The notes under the pieces: generated by a model
Database searches by the model: none
Seen by the model: only the letters and a program-made list of their open reading frames with translations
Told to the model about the DNA's origin: nothing
NCBI RefSeq assembly: GCF_038396765.1
Contig: NZ_CP150096.1
Span: 5,067,001-5,131,000 of the forward strand
DNA from: Chitinophaga caseinilytica
GTDB taxonomy: Bacteria > Bacteroidota > Bacteroidia > Chitinophagales > Chitinophagaceae
Reading direction: 5' to 3'
DNA: 64,000 nt
Position numbers and translations under genes: made by a program
Part shown: positions 43,937-56,418 of the stretch, piece after piece
Layout: the number at the start of each line of letters is the position of its first letter
How positions within the stretch are numbered: position 1 is the stretch's first letter

Positions 43937-44374
43937 ATGAATGCATATAAAGAAGTTACCATATACTTTGGGCTTACCGATGAAAAAGACATTTCCCTGG
44001 CCGATATCCTGACTTGCATCCCATTGGGGGAGCGGCGGGAATGGGCGTTGCTGCATATGGAGGCATTGGGGCACCCGGAGGATCTGGATGTACTGAAGTT
44101 CCAGTCGGAGGCCGAGATCCATGGGATCGTTTATGGGTGGGATGCGTTGCAGCAGATGCAGGACCGTTTTGCGCAGGTGATTGAAATGATGGTTGTGGGC
44201 GGGGAACGGGTGAGCCATTTGAGGAAGGCGATGCCTTTCGAAGAGATATTGGAGGCGGCCGAATATGTGGTGGAGTTGGTGGACGGAGGGTTCTGGGTGG
44301 TTCATACCCGGAATGAGCAGGTTGTCAACAATATCTGTGGGAGGTTCCCGCGCGTGGAGGTGGTGGAGATCTAG
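43937..44374 (+). CDS. Hypothetical protein whose 3' end is tandemly duplicated downstream
   Basis: 145 residues from ATG 43937 (MNAYKEVTIYFGLTDEKDIS). Soluble, acidic, with helical segments (GWDALQQMQDRFAQVIEMMV; FEEILEAAEYVVELVDGGFW). No family recognised. The last 30 codons (DGGFWVVHTRNEQVVNNICG) reappear, decayed, in the DNA that follows, showing that this gene end seeded a tandem repeat. Base composition is G-rich on the coding strand compared with neighbours. Confidence 0.65.
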   Translation: MNAYKEVTIYFGLTDEKDISLADILTCIPLGERREWALLHMEALGHPEDLDVLKFQSEAEIHGIVYGWDALQQMQDRFAQVIEMMVVGGERVSHLRKAMPFEEILEAAEYVVELVDGGFWVVHTRNEQVVNNICGRFPRVEVVEI

Positions 44375-44880
44375 TGGCTATGGGAGTTGGGGACGGAGGG
44401 TTCTCGCTGGTTCATACCAGGAGTGAGCAGGTTGTCAATAATAACTGTGGGAGATTCCCGCGCGGAGGTGGTGAAGCTTTGATGCCCAGGGCCTTAGTTG
44501 CTATAGAAATCGAAGGGATAGAGGGTTCAGCCTGGTTCATTTCTGAAACAAAACGGCGATCGGAAATTTTTGTGGGAGATTGTTATTATAGGAAGACTTA
44601 GGGTTTGATATATGAGACACTTACCTTTCTATGGAAATTGGAGTTCAGGAAAGGGCTGGTCAATTCATTTCCGAATCGAACCAGCGCTCGGAAATTTCAG
44701 GGGAAGATTACCAAAGGCGGAGATCTTGGGAGTTTGATACAAGCGGAACTTACCTTTCTATGGAAATTAGAGTATAGAAAGGGACTGATCAATTCATTTC
44801 CGAATCGAACCGGTGATCAGCAATTTCAGAGGGAGATTGCATCGAGCGGAGGTCTTGGGAAATTGAAATTCGAGGAACCT
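44282..44880 (+). repeat. Five-copy decaying tandem duplication of a gene 3' end
   Basis: Copy 1 is inside the preceding gene (from 44282, GACGGAGGGTTCT). Copy 2 starts at 44392, copy 3 about 44517, copy 4 about 44645 and copy 5 about 44774; successive spacings are about 110, 125, 128 and 129 bases. Copies 4 and 5 are the most alike (CTTACCTTTCTATGGAAATT at 44620 and 44749). Copies 2 to 5 carry stops and frame changes, so they are not functional genes. Confidence 0.75.
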
Positions 44881-45014
44881 GGATGTCTAATTCCATGAAA
44901 ACTGAACGAATGGATGGAAATAGCTTGACTCCTACCTTTGAAGACGGTGTTAACCCAATATCCAACGGGCCCATTTTTCCAACTCCGCGGGAATTCGCTA
45001 AATTCACGGTAGTT

Positions 45015-45593
45015 ATGGATATTAAAGAACAGCTCCGCCAGCATTTTTTACAGATCGTCAGCCTCACGGATGAGGAGTTCGAATACGTATGGACACACTT
45101 CACTTTTAAAAAGTACAGGAAAAGGCAGTTTCTCATCCAGGAAGGCGATACCGTCAAGTACCATTACTGGGTGGCGAAGGGCCTGATCAAGTCCAGCTAT
45201 ACCGATGAATCGGGTAAGGAACACATTCTCCAGTTTGCCATGGAAGATTGGTGGATATCCGACTACCAGGCGCTTTACAACCATTCTCCCGCTTCTTTGA
45301 CGGTAGATTGTATTGAGGACAGCGAGGTGCTGGCGCTTTCCGACGAAGACCGTCAAAAACTAACCCGGGAAATACATGCTTTCTCGAATTTCTTCTTACA
45401 GAAGAAAAACGGCGGATATGTCGGTCTCCAGCAACGGATATTGCTGCTGCTATTCAAAAATCCCCGCGAACGATACGAGCGATTGCAGCAATTACAGCCG
45501 CGCCTGTTGCAAAGGGTTCCGAAGGTATTGCTGGCTTCTTATCTGGGTGTTTCCAGGGAAAGCCTTAGCAGATTGTATCAGGGCGAGTTGTGA
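45015..45593 (+). CDS. Crp/Fnr family transcriptional regulator
   Basis: 192 residues from ATG 45015 (MDIKEQLRQHFLQIVSLTDE), the usual length for Bacteroidota members; the open frame further upstream runs into the repeat region and lacks family similarity. cNMP-binding beta-barrel (FKKYRKRQFLIQEGDTVKYH, VAKGLIKSSYTDESGKEHI) and a short C-terminal HTH (RVPKVLLASYLGVSRESLSR). The usual phosphate-binding Arg of CRP is not obvious, so cAMP is probably not the ligand. Confidence 0.85.
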   Translation: MDIKEQLRQHFLQIVSLTDEEFEYVWTHFTFKKYRKRQFLIQEGDTVKYHYWVAKGLIKSSYTDESGKEHILQFAMEDWWISDYQALYNHSPASLTVDCIEDSEVLALSDEDRQKLTREIHAFSNFFLQKKNGGYVGLQQRILLLLFKNPRERYERLQQLQPRLLQRVPKVLLASYLGVSRESLSRLYQGEL

Positions 45594-45699
45594 GCTAATT
45601 GACTTCAAATCATGTCTTCTATGACCCATCAAGCTAATCTATAACGATAGGAATCAGCTAAGCGCAAAATACAATCACCCCTGGTGATTGGCGATTTTC

Positions 45700-47440
45700 G
45701 CCCTAAAAGAAGCACCAAACACAGGACATTTTTCACACATTAAGCTGTTCCCCTGATTGCTGGAAGCAGCGAAGCACGAAACTCGACCACATCTCGTTCT
45801 TGCGCAATCTCTTGGCAAGAAACTCCGGACACGGTACGATTCTCCCCTCTCCTGATGCAGAAAGCAGCCAACCTTGAAAGCCTATCGTGCAGCCTGTCGT
45901 TCCCAAAATTACAGGAAGCAGCGAAGCATGAAATCCCACCATACCAAACTACAAACCTCCTTTCCTACTGCTGGAAACATCAAGCCGGGGGCACCAATCA
46001 ACTAACACCCTCGCACACCAAACCAATCCATTAATTAAAGAATGCCGCGAAGTTGAAAAACGACCGCCACTACATCCCCTACTCTGCAGGAAGTAACAAA
46101 TACCCAAATACTACGCGCACCAAGCCATTCCCATAACTATTGGAAACTGCGCAGCTTGAAATACGGCCACACCTTACTAAAATACCCTTCCGTCTTACAG
46201 AAAACTCCAAACACCGAACTTCTACCGCACACCAAGCCGTTTCCACAATTAATGGAAGCGGGGCAGCATGAAACATGTCCATACCTAACTATAAGGTCAT
46301 TCTTTCTCACTGGGAGCACCAAACACCGAAATGCTATTGCACACCAATCCGTTTCCGTCAATAATGGAAGCTGGGCAACATGTAATACGTCTACACCTTT
46401 CTATAAGGTCGCTCCTTCTCACAGGAAGCACCCAAACACCGAACCTCTACCGCATACCAAGCCGTTTCTATAATTAATGGAAGCTGGGCAGCATGAAACG
46501 CGGCCACACCTTCCTATAAGCCCCTTCCGACTTACAGGATCCACCAATAACCGAATTTCTACCACACACCACACCGTTTCCATAATTAATGGAAGCTGGG
46601 CAGTCTGAAACATGTCCACACCTTCCCATAAAACCCTTCCGACCTACAGGAAGTACCAATCACCGAACTTCTACCGCACGCCAAGCCGTTTCCATAATTA
46701 ATGGAAGCTTTGCAGCATGAAACACGTCCATACCTTACTATCAGTTCACTCCTTCTCACAGGAAGCCCCCAAACACCGAACTTCTACCGCACACCAAGCC
46801 GTTTCCATAATTAATGGAAGCTAGGCTGCATGAAACACGTCCACACCCTCCTATAAGACCCTTCCGACCTACAGGAAGCACCAAACACCGAACTTCTACC
46901 GCACGCCAATCCGTTTCCATAATTAATGGGAGCTTTGCAGCATGAAACACGTCCATACCTTACTATCAGTTCACTCCTTCTCACCGGAAGCCCCCCAAAC
47001 ACCGAACTTCTACCGCACACCAAGCCGTTTCCATAATTAATGGAAGCTAGGCTGCATGAAACACACCCATACCTTACTATAACGCCCTTCCTTCTCACAG
47101 GAAGCCCCCCAATCACCGAACTTCTACCGCACACCAAGCCGTTTCCATACTTAATGGAATCTAGGCTGCATGAAACACGTCCATACCTTACTATCAGTTC
47201 ACTCCTTCTCACAGGAAGCCCCCAAACACCGAACTTCTACCGCACACCAAGCCGTTTCCATAATTAATGGAAACTGGACAGCATATAACATGCCCACACC
47301 TTACTATCAGTTCGCTCCTTCTCACAGGATGCCCCCAAACACCGAACTTCTACCGCATACCAAGCCGCTTCCATAATCAATGGAATCTGGGCAACATGAA
47401 ACTTGTCCAAACCTACTAATCGCCCTCCTGACCTCACTGT
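45700..47440. repeat. Array of about 15 tandem repeats of about 112 bp
   Basis: The word GTTTCC(A/G) within each unit falls at 46240, 46351, 46464, 46576, 46688, 46801, 46913, 47027, 47141, 47254 and 47367, giving periods of 111-114; earlier, more diverged units can be followed back to about 45700. Each unit carries CCGAACTTCTACCGCAC, a palindromic core TTCCAT-AATTA-ATGGAA and a closing ACAGGAAGC. Seven units keep the palindrome arms intact. Two sub-types alternate (one with CTATCAGTTCACTCCTTC, one with CCCTTCCGACCTACAGG). Varying unit length breaks every reading frame, so the array is judged noncoding. Confidence 0.9.
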
Positions 47441-47694
47441 ATGCACTCCAATTTTAACTGCCGGGCATTCATCGCGCGACATAGCATTCCCAGTGGCAGC
47501 AGCATCGTAGGGCAAACATTACAACATTACGTTTCACGCCAACGATCGCCCTCGCCTCATAGTGCAACCCCGGGTTGTGAGCCAGATCACAGCTTTTTAG
47601 TGCGTCACCGCAACTATTGCCTTTTAGCGCTGTTCTATTTTTGTGTAGCCACAACGGCCAAACCAAACACCCTAATTCAGCAAAAAACAAAATC

Positions 47695-48384
47695 ATGAAC
47701 GTCCTCAAAATTCTCATCGTACTAACTTCCCATAGCCAGCTCGGCGATACGGGCCATAAAACCGGGTTCTGGGTTGAAGAATTCGCCGCGCCCTATTATG
47801 CACTGGCTGATGCAGGCGCACAAATCACCATTGCCTCCCCGCAAGGAGGTCAGCCACCAATTGACCCGAAAAGCGAATCGCCTGAATCGCAGACCGATGC
47901 CACCCGCAGGTTTTTCGCTGACAAAGCGCTCCAGGAGAAACTCGCCTCCTCCATTCCTTTGACACAGATCAACCCGGCAGAATATGATGCCATATTCTAC
48001 CCCGGGGGCCACGGGCCGCTTTGGGATTTAACAAACAATAGGACTTCCATCGCGCTAATTGAGCAATTCTACAACAACGGGAAGCCTGTAGCCGCTGTGT
48101 GCCACGCTCCCGCCGTGCTCCTGCACGCTAAGAAAGCCAACGGCGAACCGCTGGTGAAAGGCCTTACAGTAACCGGCTTCTCCAATAACGAAGAAGAAGC
48201 CGTACAACTAACGAAAGTTGTTCCCTTCCTGCTGGAAGACGAACTCAAGAAAAACGGCGGTGTTTATAGCAAAGGTCCCGACTGGAGCAGCTATGTCCTG
48301 AAAGACGGGCTACTCATTACCGGCCAAAACCCGGCATCTTCAGAGGAAGCTGCAAAGCAATTACTTGAACTATTGAAAAAATAA
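47695..48384 (+). CDS. DJ-1/PfpI family protein (Hsp31-like, class I glutamine amidotransferase fold)
   Basis: 229 residues from ATG 47695. Catalytic elbow AAVCHAPAVLL (Cys136, His137), an upstream acidic pair GFWVEEFAAPYYALADAGA (Glu28/Glu29), and IASPQGGQPPIDPKS are characteristic of the Hsp31/YhbO-like branch, reported as glyoxalase III or protein deglycase/chaperone. It sits directly after the tandem-repeat array with about 255 bases of other sequence between. A terminator follows. Confidence 0.9.
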   Translation: MNVLKILIVLTSHSQLGDTGHKTGFWVEEFAAPYYALADAGAQITIASPQGGQPPIDPKSESPESQTDATRRFFADKALQEKLASSIPLTQINPAEYDAIFYPGGHGPLWDLTNNRTSIALIEQFYNNGKPVAAVCHAPAVLLHAKKANGEPLVKGLTVTGFSNNEEEAVQLTKVVPFLLEDELKKNGGVYSKGPDWSSYVLKDGLLITGQNPASSEEAAKQLLELLKK

Positions 48385-48879
48385 TTAAACCCAATGGGTT
48401 TCATACTCGGTAGTATATGCCCGGAGACATTCGCCTCCGGGCTTTTGCATTACCAGCATCAACCCACATCTATCACGCATCACTAACCACTTTGCATTGA
48501 TAGTAACTACCAATAGCGTCAGTATTCCTCTTCGCTCAGAAAATCCAGGCACCAGCCAGCGCTCCCACAAAAAACCGAACCTATAATCTATTCAGGTTTA
48601 CGCAACCTGTAAAAACCAGCAACACGCACCAATATTGAATGAGACACCCTGATACGGGCCCATTTCACAAATCAAGCACCATAATCCATCTGCAACAATA
48701 TGAGTGTCAATCCCTTTCAGGAAGCATAATCAAGCGACCAACACAAACATTACCACCAACGAATACATACTTAAATATAACCCATCACAGCCCTTATGAT
48801 CAGTCATTCGCATCATCAGCGAAACATGAATTGCGACAGAACGTCAGGGATTGCTAACATCCGTGTTATCTTAACACGA
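48385..48879. other. AT-rich intergenic region after the DJ-1 gene
   Basis: About 495 bases with no gene supported. Apart from the terminator at 48419-48446 I see no structured or repeated element. Confidence 0.6.
48419..48446 (+). terminator. Rho-independent terminator after the DJ-1 gene
   Basis: Stem GCCCGGAG / CTCCGGGC (48419-48426, 48435-48442) with an eight-base loop, then TTTT, 35 bases after the stop. Confidence 0.8.
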
Positions 48880-49368
48880 CTAAGCCCTATCTCCTTCGGC
48901 GCCCCTGCCTGCAATAGGCAAATGCCTTCCTCCACCACTCCACAGCTCCTTTTTGATCCAGTCAGACACCATTTTCCGTCCCATTGGCGTGGAAAGCAAT
49001 GATAATGGTGATAAATACCCCATGGATGCCCGCTCCTGCCGCATCCACATATTAAACAAACCTGGCATTCCACGACGCGAATATCCCATTCCATAAATGG
49101 CCAACACTTCCAGGAGTTGCTGATGCACTTTGTCTTCCAAATCGACCGAGGCCAGGTATTTCGGCACCTGCAACGCATCGAGCCGAAACACATAGCTCAG
49201 CTCCAGCCAGGAAATTTCCGACATCTTTACAAATTCACGGAACTGCTCAGTAGTCAGTTTCTTTTTACCCAGTGCACGCTTTGGGTTAATAGCTTTGGTG
49301 GCGAGATCAATCACTGAATCCACACAAACATGGTAACAGGAGTTCTCGTCTAAAGGCTTCTGTGGCAT
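48880..49368 (-). CDS. DUF2384 (MbcA/ParS/Xre) antitoxin-like protein, orphan
   Basis: 162 residues. The N-terminal half is an Xre-like helical region (LTTEQFREFVKMSEISWLEL, DALQVPKYLASVDLEDKVHQ) and the C-terminal half matches the toxin-binding DUF2384 pattern: VLAIYGMGYSRRGMPGLFNM, then RASMGYLSPLSLLSTPMGRK. Such proteins normally neutralise a RES-domain NAD-consuming toxin encoded next to them, but no RES gene is found on either side. It may be a decayed pair or act in trans. The last residues may be an extension beyond the usual fold. Confidence 0.6.
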   Translation of the reverse strand: MPQKPLDENSCYHVCVDSVIDLATKAINPKRALGKKKLTTEQFREFVKMSEISWLELSYVFRLDALQVPKYLASVDLEDKVHQQLLEVLAIYGMGYSRRGMPGLFNMWMRQERASMGYLSPLSLLSTPMGRKMVSDWIKKELWSGGGRHLPIAGRGAEGDRA

Positions 49369-50346
49369 TTAGCTTTCTTTTTGATTGTTAATAAAAGTGT
49401 ATTCGAACTTAAATGAAAGGGAATTATGAAAAACCGGGATTACAAAGTTTCAACCCAATACGCATAGGCACAATCACGCCTTTAATAGCGTTAATTCGTA
49501 AAATGCAACAGATTAACATGATAGTTACATTCTACCTCTTCCCCAATTCGGGCCTTACTACATCATCTCAATTATCACTCCCACAAGTATGAGAAGTTAC
49601 GCCATTGCTCTTTGATCTAAACCGTCTACAATTACGTAGGCAGTAATGATATTCTAATATTAAATCCTATCAACTTCCATGCTTTACTTTAAGTATCGCT
49701 TCCAGAATACTCAAGTACGCATGTAAATCTTATATCTTCTAAAATAGTGCCTCCACATACATGCTTGCGAAATAGTTTTTATCCGGGATTAACATGAAAC
49801 AAAATTAAGCAAATGGAAAATACGAATGACATTTTTAGTGAAATATTTCACCGATAATTTCTCGCTTTTTCGGAGAATTCAAACTTGTTAGTGATCCTGC
49901 CATTTTTTCTTCAATATTCCTTTACCAACACCTCAATAACCATAACTATAAAGAATACTACAAAAACAGATAAATAATTCAATAGTCAATGTTCAACAAA
50001 AAAGCACCTGTTATTTTCATTTTTTTTGTGTTTAAAAAACTGATCCCAATTTCCACACTATTTTTCTCATCTACTTTCTACTTACTTTTATGTCGTCACG
50101 AATTCAAGACAACGTTTTTTACATCAAATTCATTTATAAAAAATGATAAAACTACTTAGTCAAGAGACAACTATTTTAGCTACAACTGGTTTTAAATAGT
50201 TCCCCAAATTCCGCCAATCGCTATCATATCAAATCTCTCAACACAGCGCTGTAGTGAAGCTTTCTAATGTCAGGAAAATTCACTTTCGCATTGTTGTTAA
50301 CCAATCCAATCTAATAATATCATCCATTGCCCTTAAAAACATTATT
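49369..50346. other. AT-rich gene-free stretch upstream of the RHS gene
   Basis: About 980 bases, markedly AT-rich compared with the rest of the window, with many short poly-A and poly-T runs and no open frame of note. I see no clear promoter, repeat or RNA. It probably holds the regulatory region of the RHS gene and the antitoxin-like gene, and may be horizontally acquired DNA. Confidence 0.6.
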
Positions 50347-53154
50347 ATGAGATTACGATTCTTTGTTAACCTGTTACTTTTCACTTCGGCCGCTTTTAGT
50401 CAGCAGCCAGACAATAGCATGCCTCCAGCAAAAACGGCACGCGCCATTCCGCAACCATTGCCTTCTGGCGCGAAAGTGAATTTTGTTCGTACCTGGTCAC
50501 CCAACCAGCCAACTACCGACCGCGCGATTGCATACCGCGCTACTGACATCGGAGCCACTCCCGAGTCTACCGACTACTTCGACGGCCTGGGGCGCTTATT
50601 ACAAACGGTCAACAGGGGCGTTGCTCCGCTCGCAAAAAAGGATCTTGTAACACCGGTACTATACGATGCGTACGGCCGGGTTGCTTTCCAATACCTGCCA
50701 TATATAAGTCCCTCGGCCGATGGAGCCCTTAAGAAAAATGCGTTTGCAGAACAGAAAGCATGCTTTGACGCGTTGCTTACCACCGCCGACAACAACAAGG
50801 AAGACATCTATTATGGCAAAACGGATTTTGAAAACTCGCCGTTAAATCGCGTCGTCAAAGCCATGTCGCCGGGCAATAATTGGGCAGGCTCCGGCCGCGG
50901 AATTTCCAAAAGATACCTGGTAAACGCCGCCAGCGATGAAGTAAGGCGATGGAATGTAACTACTATAATTACTGGTAACGTGCCCTTTTCAAATGTCGCC
51001 TCGCCGGGAATTTATCCCGCCGAAGAACTACAGAAGAACATAACGATTGATGAGCTAGGCAAGCAAACGGTTGAATATCTTGACAAAGATGGCCAAATGA
51101 TCCTGAAAAAAATTCAGATCGCGCCTGCACCAGGTGCCAACCATACCGGGTGGCTTTGCACCTATTACGTGCACGACACCCAGGGAAACCTGCATTTCGT
51201 AATACCACCCAAAGCAGTTGAAATGCTACCATCTGCAGGTTGGACGATCAGCCCTGCATTAAGCAAATCCCTCTGTTTCCGGTATGAATATGACAGCCGA
51301 AACAGAATGATCATCAAAAAAATACCGGGTGCGGATTCCATAGAAATGGTATACGATCAACGGGACCGACTCGTATTGCTGCGCGACGGCAACCTCCGCG
51401 CCGTGGGCGGCAAGTGGCTGGCAACGCTCTACGACAACCTGAACCGGCCGATTATGACCGGCATATATGCCAGTACAAACACTCATGGCCAACTGATCAT
51501 TGCCCAAAGTACATCACCCGGTACCAATTCCATCCTGCCAGCCCATCTCGACCCGCTGACCTACACCTTCTACGACAACTACACTTATCCGGGAGCCAAG
51601 GCCGCCCAATCCAGCTATTTCACCAAGCCCCAACCGGGTACCAACCCGTATCCGGAAGCCATTACCGTTAATTCACAGGCCAAGGGGCTAGTTACCGGCA
51701 CGAAAGTCCGCGTGCTGGAAACGTCCCAATTCCTCATGACCACCCAATACTATGACCCCAAAGGCCGGCTGATCCAGACAATCAGCGACAATCATAATAA
51801 CGGGGTGGACATTACGACCAACCTTTATGACTTCTCCGGGAAGCTGCTCAGCACCTACCAATATCTAAATAATCCTTCTGCCGGCGCTGCTGGCGTCATC
51901 CGTCTGCTGACAAACCGAACATACGATCATGCCGGTCGCCTTATCAAAGTGACCAAACAACTCAACGATAACGCTGCCTTTAGACGGGACATCGCTACGA
52001 ATTACTACGACGCCCTCGGCCAGCTACAGCGGAAGGAATTCAGGCGCGCTTCAGGCAACATTGTAGAAAGCATGACCTACACGTACAATATCCGTGGATG
52101 GCTCAAAGGAATTAACCGCAACTATGTGAAAGGCGCTGAAACCCGGTATTTTGGACAGGAACTGCATTACGATGCAGGGTTCACCAACAGGGAATACACC
52201 GGCAATATCGCGGGAACCACCTGGAGGGGCACCAAAATCAGTACCCCCAATGCCTATGGCTATCTTTATGATGCGGCGGGCCGGCTCCTCAGGGCGAACT
52301 TTACACAATCCACCAGCACAAATACATGGGGAAAAACCCTCCATAATTACGATTCGTGGATGGGCGATGGCACCAATTACACCACCGCTTATGATGCCAA
52401 TGGAAACATCCGGCGGATGCAGCAATGGGGCGCGAAAGGAACCAGCACCAATTCCAAGATTGATGATCTAACCTACACAATTTATGATTCGACGGGATTG
52501 ACAGCCTCAAACAAACTGTATAAAGTTGTGGATGCCGTCAACGATCCAAAGTCGACACTGGGTGATTTTACCGACCAGCAACCTGCCGCTGCCTTCGATT
52601 ATGCTTATGACAGGAACGGGAACCTGACACGGGATGAAAACAAGAAAATCTCAGCGATTCGCTACAACCACCTAAACCTGCCGAAATCCATCACTTTAAC
52701 AAGCAAAGGCTCCATTAGTTACATGTATGACGCCAATGGTCGCAAACTTGCCAAAATAGTCACCGACAATACCGTTACGCCTGCGCGCATCACACGGACC
52801 GACTACCTCGGGCCCGCGGTATTCGGAAACAACATCCTGCAGCTGATCACCCATGAAGAGGGCCGCATAAGACCGCTTGCCAGCGGGGGCTTTACTTACG
52901 ACTATTTCCTCAAAGATCACCTCGGCAATGTACGCATGGTATTGGCGGAAGATAATCCGTCGAAGCAAGCCTACGTCGCCAGCATGGAACCTAAGCAGGC
53001 CGTTGTTGAAAACTCCCTCTTCAGTAATATCGATGACTCCAGGTCAAACAAGCCCCCGGCTATCCGGACGATCCGCAATCCAGCACCAATACCGCCGTGG
53101 CACGGCTCAACGGCAACGATCCCCGCAGGAGGATCGGCCCCAGCCTTGTCCTGA
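50347..53154 (+). pseudogene. RHS/YD-repeat protein, N-terminal part (DUF6443-type), frameshifted
   Basis: 935 residues from ATG 50347, which gives a signal peptide (RLRFFVNLLLFTSAAFSQQ). DUF6443-like opening (STDYFDGLGRLLQTVNRGVA) and many YD-type repeats: YDSRNRMIIKKI, YDPKGRLIQTI, YDHAGRLIKV, YDAAGRLLRA, YDRNGNLTRD, YDANGRKLAK, up to the RHS landmark LKDHLGNVRMVLAED. After SNIDDSRSNKPP the frame turns into a nonsense tail; the sequence that belongs next (GYPDDPQSSTNTAVARLNG) is in the -1 frame. One C lost from a C6 run (now C5, 53053-53057) explains it. Confidence 0.8.
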
Positions 53155-54593
53155 AAGTGCAGACCGGAGATACGATAAACCTGGGCGCAAGGGCATTTTA
53201 TAAATCCGCAGCGATCGGAAAACAGCAAAATACCTCCGTAACCGCCGCCGACATGGCCACGGCGCTACTGAGTGCCTTTGGGAAGACGACCATCCCGGCT
53301 CCGGGGACCCATGGTTCCGGCGGTGGTCCACAAAGCCCTCCATTCGGGAATGATTTCGTCAGCAACAGTTGGCAACGGCTCCGGGACAAAGAGCCACAAA
53401 GTCCCCCCAATACCAACCGCCCGAAAGCATATCTCAATTTTGTGCTGTTCGACGAACAGTTTAAACTGGTAGAAGGATCCAGTGGCGTTCGGCAGGTTGC
53501 AGCCAGTCCCGACCAATTGCAGACGCTGGCTGTAAATAACCTGGTCATGAAACAATCTGGCTTCTTGTATGTTTATACCAGCAATGAAGCGCCCCAGGAT
53601 ATATTCTTTGATAATATTATCCTAGTATTGGCAGGTACCCCCGTGCTGGAAGAAACACATTATTATCCGTTTGGGCTCGTCATGGAGGGCTTAAGCGAGA
53701 AAGTCTTGTATAACCCAGTAAATAAAGAACAAAAATTCCAGGGGCAACCATTTGACGATGATCTGGGGCTAAATTGGTATGGATTTAAATTCAGGAATCA
53801 CGATCCGCAAATTGGTAGATTTATCCAGGCAGATCCTTTATCTGACAAGTACGTGTATAACTCCACGTACGCTTTTTCCGAAAATCATGTGACGGCACAT
53901 GTTGAGTTGGAAGGATTGGAGAAAATAAGTATACAGGGGTTGTGGCAAAAGGCAGGAATTTCAAGCAACACAGATGTAAAAGAATTTGCAAAAGGAGTCG
54001 GTAAAGCGCTAAAAGACTCGGACAATCTTTCTAAGGCTAGCATTTTGTTGGGACAATTTTCCGTACTCACTATTGTCGGAGTTGCAACGAGTGGAATAGG
54101 TTCTGGAACTTTGTTCTCACGGGGATTACAAGGCATGAGAAACGCGTCTTTTAGAATAGGCCGCATGCCTCTTACTATAAATAGTGACGTATCGGGCACA
54201 GCAATTAGTACTAACACCGAAATTGCAATAGGGATTGAAACTAGTACTGCTAAGACCAGTAGTACTACGATGGCATTAACAAACTATTGGCCGAGAAATG
54301 GAGGTGCGTTAAATGAATGGAGCAATGAGTTCTTGACACCTGGGGCTCAAATAGATCGATTTGGATCAGGATTTGGAAAATACTTGTCTCCAAGGTACAC
54401 ACCTATTGAAATGAGGGCTTTACCTCCAGATAATACAGGAGTTTACAATGCCTTTAAAGTTGTCAAACCATTTGAAGTTCAATCGTCGACCATAGCGCCA
54501 GCATTTAACCAAATAGGCTTAGGGAAGCAATATTTATCCCCTGTTAATGTCAACACGCTGCTAAAAAAAGGTATTATTATTCCAGTTCAATAA
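53058..54593 (+). pseudogene. RHS protein, C-terminal part with TNT-like NAD+ glycohydrolase toxin domain
   Basis: Continuation of the upstream RHS gene in the -1 frame; the first in-frame start codon (GTG) of the separated frame lies at 53097. It finishes the RHS core: HYYPFGLVMEG, LGLNWYGFKFRNHDPQIGRF and QADPLSDKYVYNSTYAFSEN. Then comes a lower-GC variable tail. The final 106 residues (54273-54593) resemble the TNT domain of CpnT: NYWPRNGGALNEW, LTPGAQIDRFGSGFGKYLSP, MRALPPDNTGVYNAFKVVKP, and TIAPAFNQIGLGKQY. The conserved Arg and Gln of the NADase site appear to be present. If expressed as full-length, it would be a polymorphic toxin. Confidence 0.8.
54273..54593 (+). other. TNT-like toxin domain (within RHS C-terminus)
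   Basis: Key positions by comparison with the known TNT fold: Arg in IDRFGS, Arg in EMRALPP, and Gln in FNQIGLG or GKQYLSP, all in the expected order. Known TNT enzymes hydrolyse NAD+ and kill cells unless bound by an immunity protein. Confidence 0.7.
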
Positions 54594-54600
54594 ATTTATT

Positions 54601-54858
54601 ATGACATTGTTAGAATTAGATTTGAAATTGCGGGATTTAAAAATTAATCCTAAAAACTACTCCTTGAACGGCGACTTAAAAAGTGATGCAATTATCTTAT
54701 TTCACAATTTTGAAAATTGGAACGTATTCTATTTGGATGATCGTGGTGGTAGAAGCGAAGAGAAGATATTTGCAACAGAAGGAGAAGCTTGCTTGCATAT
54801 CTATAAACACTTTTTAATAGAAAAAGATATTGCCGATAAATTCAACTTGAATACGTAG
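54601..54858 (+). CDS. Candidate immunity protein for the TNT-type toxin
   Basis: 85 residues starting 7 bases after the toxin stop, on the same strand and with the same low-GC character. Soluble, acidic, alpha/beta: MTLLELDLKLRDLKINPKNY, then DAIILFHNFENWNVFYLDDR with GRSEEKIFATEGEACLHIY. Small size, spacing and position directly after a toxin C-terminus are the usual marks of an immunity gene. I do not recognise a specific Imm family with certainty. Confidence 0.7.
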   Translation: MTLLELDLKLRDLKINPKNYSLNGDLKSDAIILFHNFENWNVFYLDDRGGRSEEKIFATEGEACLHIYKHFLIEKDIADKFNLNT

Positions 54859-55342
54859 GAGAAGCAGCATAAAAGTAAGGTCATAAAGCAAATTTGAAAA
54901 ACATCATAAAAATTTCAACATGCGTGTGTGTGTGTGTGTGTGTGCGTGAAGATCCTAAACAAACACAAAACAATGTACTTCTGACAAAAAACTAGAAGTA
55001 ATTAGTAGAATTATCTCCATTAGAGTTATCATTCATTGCCCAACATAAGCTTATTAAGGCAAAACGGCACCAATCCCTATTTTCACGGGGCCGATTCGGC
55101 TATTTGATAGTCTCCAAATATTGGACTCCTATGTTTTTCCCGAAAATCAACAACTAACCCCAATGAAACAACCACCCTTTCATTTTAAACGCCTACCCAA
55201 GTTCCAAAGTTGTTTCTTAATTTAGATTTCCGAAAAGTAAAATAACACTGTCAGAAAAGGAGCTTCCGGCTCTCTTAGCTATTTGACAACAATAGAACAA
55301 CTATTTAAAAGCGAATTTAAAACTGGAGATCATCATATACCC
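54859..55342. other. Intergenic region with a GT microsatellite
   Basis: About 480 bases, AT-rich, no gene supported. Contains a (GT)10 tract at 54924-54944 and hairpin-prone sequence around 55070-55090. No promoter was firmly identified for the membrane-protein gene that follows. Confidence 0.55.
54924..54944. repeat. (GT)10 dinucleotide microsatellite
   Basis: Twenty-one consecutive alternating G and T (54924-54944), followed by CGTG. Long dinucleotide tracts are rare in bacteria and prone to slipped-strand change. Confidence 0.95.
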
Positions 55343-55864
55343 ATGAAATTAAAAATTATCAACATTTATCTGCTACTCGCAAACGCCGCCAGTCTTTTCT
55401 TCATATTAAGAACCTTGATGGACAGCATAAGCGCAGTAAGCCCGGCCCAGCTATTCCTCACCATACTTGTCATTGCTGCGATCCTGTACAGCGCCTATGC
55501 AAGCCACATGCTACTGATGAAAAGAAGGGAAATGAAACAGCTTCATTTTATCCGTTACAATTTTTGGTACAACATCGTTCAAATCCCCAGTATTTCGTTG
55601 TATGGGTTTATATACATGTCTAAGCTGGGCGTAATGTTTATCGCCACGCTCGCTAACAAAAACAGTATAATCAATCTTGACTTAAAACTCGACCTGTTTC
55701 AAGTGGAAGTGAATTTCCTATACAATCCGGAAGCGCACATCTACTTCCTTGGGATCAACATCGTACCCCTGGTAATCGCAATTTTGCTGAACGGTAGTAT
55801 CGAAAAGATCGAAAAGGAGAAACAGGATGACGAAGTACGTGCATTCGCATCACAGATAAACTAA
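55343..55864 (+). CDS. Hypothetical four-helix membrane protein
   Basis: 173 residues from ATG 55343; a TTG start 20 codons earlier is possible but less likely. Helices: IYLLLANAASLFFILRTLM, LFLTILVIAAILYSAYASHM, IVQIPSISLYGFIYMSKLGV and YFLGINIVPLVIAILLNGSI. No family recognised. In overall shape it is like the tandem family at 34.7-37.2 kb but shares none of its motifs. Followed by another membrane protein 34 bases downstream. Confidence 0.7.
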   Translation: MKLKIINIYLLLANAASLFFILRTLMDSISAVSPAQLFLTILVIAAILYSAYASHMLLMKRREMKQLHFIRYNFWYNIVQIPSISLYGFIYMSKLGVMFIATLANKNSIINLDLKLDLFQVEVNFLYNPEAHIYFLGINIVPLVIAILLNGSIEKIEKEKQDDEVRAFASQIN

Positions 55865-55898
55865 CAATGACGCCGGTCAACATTTACAACAGCTCGCC

Positions 55899-56387
55899 AT
55901 GCACCTGGATTTACCATTGATCGAAGCAAGGAATACCCTGCTCATCCGCTGGCTGATCTTAGCTGGGATAGCCATTCTGGTCCTCACTGCATTAGATCTG
56001 ATGTTCTTCTCCGGAAACCTTGCCATTTGGGCAATTGCCGCCTCCATCTGTTTCGGGATAGCAGTTTCCATGAAGGATTATCGTATTACAGGCAGCATTA
56101 CCCTTTCGGCAAATGAGATCATTCTTAATGCCCCGTCCGGCAGCGCCAGTTTTCCGGTAACCCAATTGGAAAACCTCGAATTACAGCTGGCAGGACGTAA
56201 AGGAAAAGCATTCGCTTTTAATAGCTTGGCCACACAACAAGGGTCTGGCAATTCGATAGACTTTCGATATAAAGGTGAAAATGTAAAAATCAGCTTCCTG
56301 CTGGAACGGGAAACCCAGGCAGCACTAACAGCTGTAATTCACGAATGGTCGCAAATCACCACCATCAAATGTTTTAACCCCGGATAA
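55899..56387 (+). CDS. Hypothetical membrane protein with a PH-like soluble tail
   Basis: 162 residues. Two close helices (LIRWLILAGIAILVLTALDL and NLAIWAIAASICFGIAVS) then a beta-rich domain (RITGSITLSANEIILNAPSG, FPVTQLENLELQL) reminiscent of bacterial PH-like domains. No firm family. Probably co-transcribed with the upstream membrane protein; a terminator follows. Confidence 0.65.
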   Translation: MHLDLPLIEARNTLLIRWLILAGIAILVLTALDLMFFSGNLAIWAIAASICFGIAVSMKDYRITGSITLSANEIILNAPSGSASFPVTQLENLELQLAGRKGKAFAFNSLATQQGSGNSIDFRYKGENVKISFLLERETQAALTAVIHEWSQITTIKCFNPG

Positions 56388-56418
56388 AATAAAACGGGCG
56401 CCTCAAAAGGCGCCCGTT
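56388..56418. terminator. Bidirectional hairpin terminator
   Basis: Eleven-base perfect stem AACGGGCGCCT / AGGCGCCCGTT (56393-56403, 56408-56418) with loop CAAA, between convergent genes; AT-rich flanks on both sides. Confidence 0.85.

Follow-up and report, generated by a model that had tools for sequence, protein, structure and literature searches.

A tandem array of about 112-bp units separates a Crp/Fnr-family regulator gene (crp) from a DJ-1/PfpI-family gene (DJ-1) in the genome of Chitinophaga caseinilytica (G000), and we propose that it is probably a largely neutral intergenic bacterial satellite, grown by local tandem duplication and shaped by concerted evolution. The genome is a single contig of 6,517,700 bp, and the window, by which we mean the whole 64-kb stretch of DNA that was analysed, covers positions 5067001-5131000. 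An orthologous array occupies the same junction in C. rhizosphaerae (G092), and we found no evidence that the array has a specific job. The features are listed in Table 1.

Table 1 Features at and around the array (window positions)
Feature	Position	Strand	Evidence or remark
Small gene without Pfam family	43937-44374	+	Longer in-frame reading from 43763 scanned
Second tandem array, period 110-129	44375-44900	+	Repeats the 3' end of gene 43937-44374 in decaying form
crp, Crp/Fnr-family regulator (cNMP-binding domain), 5' of the array	45015-45593	+	PF00027, E 1.9e-12; coding score
Whole lineage-specific insertion, crp stop codon to TGTGA-N6-TCACA site	45594-47575		Flank alignments against relatives
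Tandem array	45733-47446	+	15 unit-model matches; TRF
Older, strongly diverged units, crp side	45733-46113	+	Unit model gives three weak matches (E 1e-10 to 2e-4)
Homogenised core	46114-47418	+	TRF period 112 (also 225 and 337); unit identities
Ten dyads TTCCAT-N5-ATGGAA, 0-2 mismatches to TTCCATAATTAATGGAA	46241-47385		One per anchored unit, none in the unit at 46349
TGTGAGCCAGATCACA, putative operator	47576-47591		Pattern search; sole TGTGA-N6-TCACA in the 64-kb window
DJ-1/PfpI-family gene, 3' of the array	47695-48384	+	PF01965, E 8.8e-19

A first, sequence-only reading of this DNA had described about 15 units of about 112 bp in a row and had suggested tandem-repeat detection, and the array was indeed recovered in this form. 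TRF run on the window found the homogenised core as 11.6 copies with periods of 112, 225 and 337, and with relaxed parameters it placed the array at 45992-47451. A unit model of ~112 bp, built from units of both species, gave 15 matches of 66-123 bp in G000, where scoring covered 150 of the 1454 candidates from a first look, all of the matches being within the limits of the array in Table 1 (5112733-5114446 on the contig). Eleven unit anchors between 46237 and 47365 are spaced at 112, 113, 112, 112, 113, 112, 114, 114, 113 and 113 bp, in agreement with the eleven anchors of the earlier reading, whose anchor word begins 2-3 bases later. By these counts the array falls under the definition of prokaryotic satellites as at least four tandem repeats of 10-200 nt (PMC6749651; Subirana and Messeguer 2019). 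Its regularity was gauged here by core unit length, which is 112-114 bp, and by the mean identity of the ten units at 46237-47364, which is 0.83. It is not a CRISPR array: entire 112-bp units are homologous, without a class of spacers. The claim that two sub-types alternate is weakly supported. Core units A4, A6 and A8 are mutually 0.94-0.98 identical, but the period-2 excess in unit similarity over the ten core units is weak (p=0.12), as is the result for A3-A8, a block picked post hoc (38 of 720 permutations). A dimeric origin from half-units of ~56 bp, considered from the occurrence of GGAAGC twice per unit, was unsupported (p 0.82 and 0.67).

The array forms the bulk of an insertion that breaks in at the crp stop codon. 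The distance between crp and DJ-1 is 2,101 bp in G000 and 1,589 bp in C. rhizosphaerae, compared with 109 bp in G078, 113 bp in G098, 144 bp in both G035 and G006, and 388 bp in G081; a related same-orientation pair in G016, G017, G022, G023 and G075 has 151-210 bp between the matched ends. When the two flanks were aligned to G035, G078, G006 and G098, they overlapped by 5 bp or lay 11-33 bp apart. The insertion consists of the array with ~140 bp before it and ~130 bp after it, and no gene is predicted within it. At its far edge stands the TGTGA-N6-TCACA site, likely an operator as judged from its sequence, which remains with DJ-1 after the insertion. The loci L160, L040, L041, L042 and L161 each carry one such site at the junction, and in the C. 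rhizosphaerae locus (L155) TGTGC replaces TGTGA. In G035 (L040, 8840-8960), two successive TGTG-N-CACA-like sites occupy the space between crp and DJ-1; it looks as though the junction had been duplicated in this genome as well.

The surroundings had been described as an otherwise accessory block. The small upstream gene and the downstream RHS/TNT genes do look accessory, but the array itself splits a crp/DJ-1 pair that is found in other genus genomes. Of 60 genus genomes, G000 included, 39 contain a match to DJ-1 at E <= 1e-60. Farther downstream, a pair of ORFs that overlap in different frames (50254-54593) carries DUF6443/RHS and a C-terminal TNT domain; they form an RHS-type polymorphic toxin locus, which a frameshift has possibly broken. 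A blastn comparison of G035 with window positions 48446-56390 gave no match.

Among 79 genus genomes, the array was matched at E 1e-5 only in C. rhizosphaerae besides G000 itself (71% over 1,063 bp, E 2.6e-126). The other 77 had no match, and some of them keep the crp/DJ-1 pair. The C. rhizosphaerae array, at the same junction, comprises 9.9 copies of 110 bp by TRF and 11 unit-model matches, against 15 in G000. The junction is free of an array in G098, G035, G006 and G078 and holds a different, 76-bp array in G081. On this comparison of sequences, the array most likely arose before G000 and C. rhizosphaerae split. The unit model was also searched for elsewhere in ten genomes, with 150 of 1200-1587 first-look candidates scored per genome. 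In G000 and G092 it matched nothing beyond the array, and in the eight further genomes nothing better than E 0.04. Within these searches the sequence is therefore unique to its locus, as in the noncoding unique type of satellite, and it lacks the outside copies that define REP, BIME or MITE repeats. The finding of the array at one junction in two separate assemblies, together with the lack of dispersed copies, makes an assembly artefact, which the earlier reading had named as a way in which it could fail, unlikely, and a mobile family likewise.

Units are more alike within each species than between the two. The units of the window array share a mean identity of 0.828 (45 pairs, ten units) and those of the G092 array one of 0.811 (36 pairs, nine units), compared with 0.705 for pairs taken across the species (90 pairs), in a set that omits the weak edge units (5 of the 15 G000 matches and 2 of the 11 in G092). 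In a tree of units, those of the window were grouped (support 0.89), joined next by B0 (0.88) and B8 (0.69), which stand first and last among the G092 units in the set. This is the pattern expected if the middles of the arrays have been homogenised and the edges have lagged. The distance between the two consensus sequences is 0.245 (Jukes-Cantor), comparable to the synonymous divergence of five flanking genes from G092 (dS 0.17, 0.22, 0.26, 0.40 and 0.74), suggesting that, taken whole, the unit diverges at about the pace of unconstrained DNA. Among these genes, dS shows a local peak around the arrays, the two highest values belonging to crp (0.74) and DJ-1 (0.40) and the range of 0.17-0.26 to the three upstream genes. 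Counting against a neutral satellite, the array has been kept at no fewer than 10 copies in both species since their split.

From these data we infer that a stretch at the 3' edge of crp would have been tandemly duplicated in the common ancestor of the G000 strain and C. rhizosphaerae. The array would then have expanded and contracted by replication slippage or by unequal recombination between misaligned copies, a process that would keep units alike within each species while each consensus drifts at about the neutral rate. The one physical effect that can be foreseen for it is a separation of crp from the DJ-1 promoter by ~2 kb. In a search for the founder, no match to the unit came up in the crp 3' end or at the empty site; among the 24 comparisons, a lone nominal p of 0.017 was taken as chance. 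The G081 array compared with the window unit gave p 0.06.

The earlier reading had also noted a near or perfect inverted repeat in most units, and this is borne out by the ten dyads of Table 1, seven of which have exact arms. Sites within two mismatches of TTCCATAATTAATGGAA number ten in the 64-kb window, all inside the array, and none was found in 100 shuffles; across the 6.5-Mb genome, exact arms around a 5-base spacer occur at the seven exact-arm dyads only. A search for inverted repeats of at least 12 bases within 60 bp found none, the arms of the dyad being shorter than this. Over 22 units, the dyad arms are conserved at 0.87 against 0.70 for the rest of the unit, and 3 of 107 circular shifts, the arms themselves included, reach this value. 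Between species the arms stand at 0.85 and the remaining columns at 0.65 (2 of 105 circular shifts), and the signal is weaker for the window units alone (8 of 112 circular shifts). The better conservation of the arms than of the rest of the unit counts against pure neutrality. We propose that the dyad would have been carried along with the founding unit and perhaps mildly retained; it is possible that it is under mild constraint as a DNA dyad, or that it has been kept since hairpins favour slippage.

For the iterated palindrome, three interpretations had been put forward: a binding array, a source of repeated small RNAs, or selfish DNA. In the first, a regulator or nucleoid protein would recognise the dyad, and the array, placed close to crp and DJ-1, would work as a decoy or looping element. 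What speaks for it is that few parts of the unit are as conserved as the arms, both within and between species, that exact-arm dyads occur nowhere else in G000, and that the adjoining gene encodes a DNA-binding-type regulator. The same confinement also tells against it, a binding protein having no exact site in the G000 genome beyond the array. The C. rhizosphaerae array contains no exact-arm dyad, and most of its units have a mismatch within the dyad. In a fixed alignment, the inner dyad pair (columns 29/44) is broken in 11 of the 22 units, all ten from G092 included. One of these ten (L155:9746-9855) has an additional G that restores a perfect 7-bp stem (TTCCCAT/ATGGGAA), a hint of compensation that a count over fixed columns does not credit. 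Moreover, the dyad is unlike the TGTGA-N6-TCACA site retained beside DJ-1, and 77 of the 79 genus genomes do without the array, some of them with the gene pair in place. Judging from sequence comparison, we consider a binding array unlikely. A bolder version, in which the dyad would be selected in both species and the array would be a lineage-specific multi-site decoy or looping element that rewires crp/DJ-1 control, appears doubtful indeed; if true, the array would have arisen by tandem duplication at the crp stop codon and would be a bacterial satellite with a regulatory role.

Repeated small RNAs, in which each unit would be a hairpin RNA gene or a processed piece of a long transcript, fared worse and are very unlikely. 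An 8-pair stem on the + strand has standard pairs in 89% of cells, and the mean fold z on this strand is about -1.1 for the window units; however, it is about -0.1 for the sister units and about 0 on the - strand (19 units). None of the eight pairs shows a two-sided change, and the covariation score (0.071) does not exceed that of shuffled alignments (0.080), so that the array lacks the conserved, covarying structure of a structured-RNA array. Terminator-like sites are in excess in 44300-48600 (10 against 5.2 expected, sd 1.9), but just one of them lies within the array (46653-46636, - strand), and promoter-like sites are at chance level (4 against 4.8 expected). No Rfam family was matched at its gathering score; the best sub-threshold match, SAM-Chlorobi with E 0.38, was taken as chance.

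It is highly improbable that the array began as a mobile element, that is, as a REP- or MITE-like insertion with target-site duplication that was amplified afterwards. The insertion is clean relative to the relatives, and TTGTGAGC is present at both of its edges; the duplicated half-site, however, also follows from tandem duplication. The outer 200 bp lack a terminal inverted repeat (141 of 300 shuffles were as good), and the insertion is without a predicted gene. Neither G000 nor nine relatives yielded a convincing dispersed copy. A 225-bp query against 59 genus genomes added one weak 33-bp match, in G021 (E 0.0025), a plasmid collection gave no match to the array, and the exact 20-bp core was absent from wider genome contigs, the own and very near records being possibly missing from both collections. 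The suggested search of relatives for other loci thus brought up the orthologous array at the same junction and nothing else that convinces. Among the three interpretations, selfish DNA comes nearest to the outcome, but as a satellite grown in place and not as a mobile one.

The array was also taken from the start to be noncoding, with changing unit lengths that speak against a conserved protein, and our results agree. Coding scores were negative for all array ORFs of at least 120 nt, and genes were called with a home-made hexamer model. A relic of a repeat-bearing protein gene could draw on the longest array ORF (133 aa, - strand; equalled or exceeded in 19 of 200 shuffles) and on one + frame of the sister array that is free of stops for 204 codons, longer than in any of 200 shuffles, but it is scarcely credible given unit lengths that are not multiples of three, 16-39 stops in every frame of the window array, a sister stretch that passes through units in three phases with a coding score of -0.36 per codon (compared with +0.15 for crp and +0.18 for DJ-1), a longest sister ORF with a start of 79 aa, sister - frames open for at most 48 codons, and the absence of one conserved frame in the two species compared.

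A satellite grown in place at the end of a gene has parallels close by. The second array in the window begins directly after the stop codon of the small gene. Its copy 1 is 91% identical to the gene 3' end over 94 bp, and the copies at 44501 and 44761 are 65-68% identical to it (0 of 300 shuffles for each, copy 1 included); the copy at 44631 is reached by 11 of 300 shuffles when compared with the gene and is 77% identical to the preceding copy (0 of 300). The sequences thus demonstrably point to the 3' end of gene 43937-44374 as the founder of the second array. C. rhizosphaerae has the small gene, followed by just a short repeat with a period of 25 bp. In the G081 array at the crp/DJ-1 junction (L042, 1602-1952), three stretches were tested, and each matches the crp 3' end at 79-82% identity (0 of 300 shuffles in every case). 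Taken together, at least three tandem expansions appear to have begun at gene 3' flanks hereabouts, two of them demonstrably, by sequence identity, from the gene end itself. Such duplication is not a general tendency of the genome: of 521 sampled gene 3' ends, one had a strong downstream copy, and it was that of the window's small gene. Lower-scoring 3'-end copies (score >=34) numbered 8 in the real sequences, 6 in reversed and 1 in swapped ones.

Arrays of other sequence are present elsewhere in G000. With a cut-off of period >=30 and length >=120 outside predicted genes, 14 were counted in 1.204 Mb of G000; two of these, in L094, are perhaps missed genes, their periods (30 and 54) being divisible by three. 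The same census gave two in 0.42 Mb of G035, and the stretches covered in G078 (0.22 Mb) and G007 (0.20 Mb) had none. The 14 G000 arrays show no similarity among themselves at E 0.01; the array L094:8239 has a 41-bp match in L048. When two other G000 arrays were compared with the 79 genus genomes, one was private and one partly common to G092 only. Several side observations were made on other loci. A 130-bp repeat in G035 (L120, 1919-2168) has copies in L127, L128 and L131, forming a dispersed REP/MITE-like family. An intergenic 85-bp repeat at L046 (5258-5441) has a GC skew of -0.95, being nearly free of G on the + strand, and strand bias is strong in some other G000 arrays as well, for example +0.61 at L048 5427. 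In G007 (L136, 1435-1578), a gene 5' end is strongly copied in the preceding intergenic DNA (score 96).

Eukaryotic satellite DNA is known for concerted evolution, a species-specific consensus, lagging edge units and higher-order repeats. The array resembles it in its homogenisation within species, its species-specific consensus, its lagging edges and a hint of a two-unit period, and differs in having ~15 copies at a single locus of a bacterial chromosome. Bacterial VNTR or minisatellite loci are likewise tandem and variable in copy number, as is the array between species (15 and 11 model matches); its units, however, are longer and more diverged, and the copy numbers compared here are those of species. 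With REP/BIME and MITE-type repeats, which have a palindromic core and are intergenic and dispersed, it shares the palindromic core in intergenic DNA, whereas it is not dispersed and no outside copies were found.

Bacterial satellites are usually regarded as isolated oddities. Here, an empty site, an orthologous array and two arrays founded by gene 3' ends make the birth, growth and homogenisation of a satellite traceable at one junction. They also indicate that a compact gene pair whose junction shares a stop codon and an operator-like site can be separated by 2 kb of repeats, with the operator-like site staying downstream.

The sequence-only reading knew of no described element of this kind, and this view has to be given up: a survey of prokaryotes has described intergenic satellites whose long repeats are unique, and has attributed them to DNA replication anomalies (PMC6749651), even though a literature search over titles and abstract openings found nothing that concerns this particular array. 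Like the unique noncoding satellites outlined in that survey, which counts 32 bacterial satellites longer than 1.5 kb, the array is tandem, intergenic and confined to one locus. It differs from those the survey outlines in being longer than most, and in having an orthologous array in a sister species by which birth, growth and homogenisation can be put in order. This readable ancestry is the unusual aspect of an otherwise known kind of satellite.
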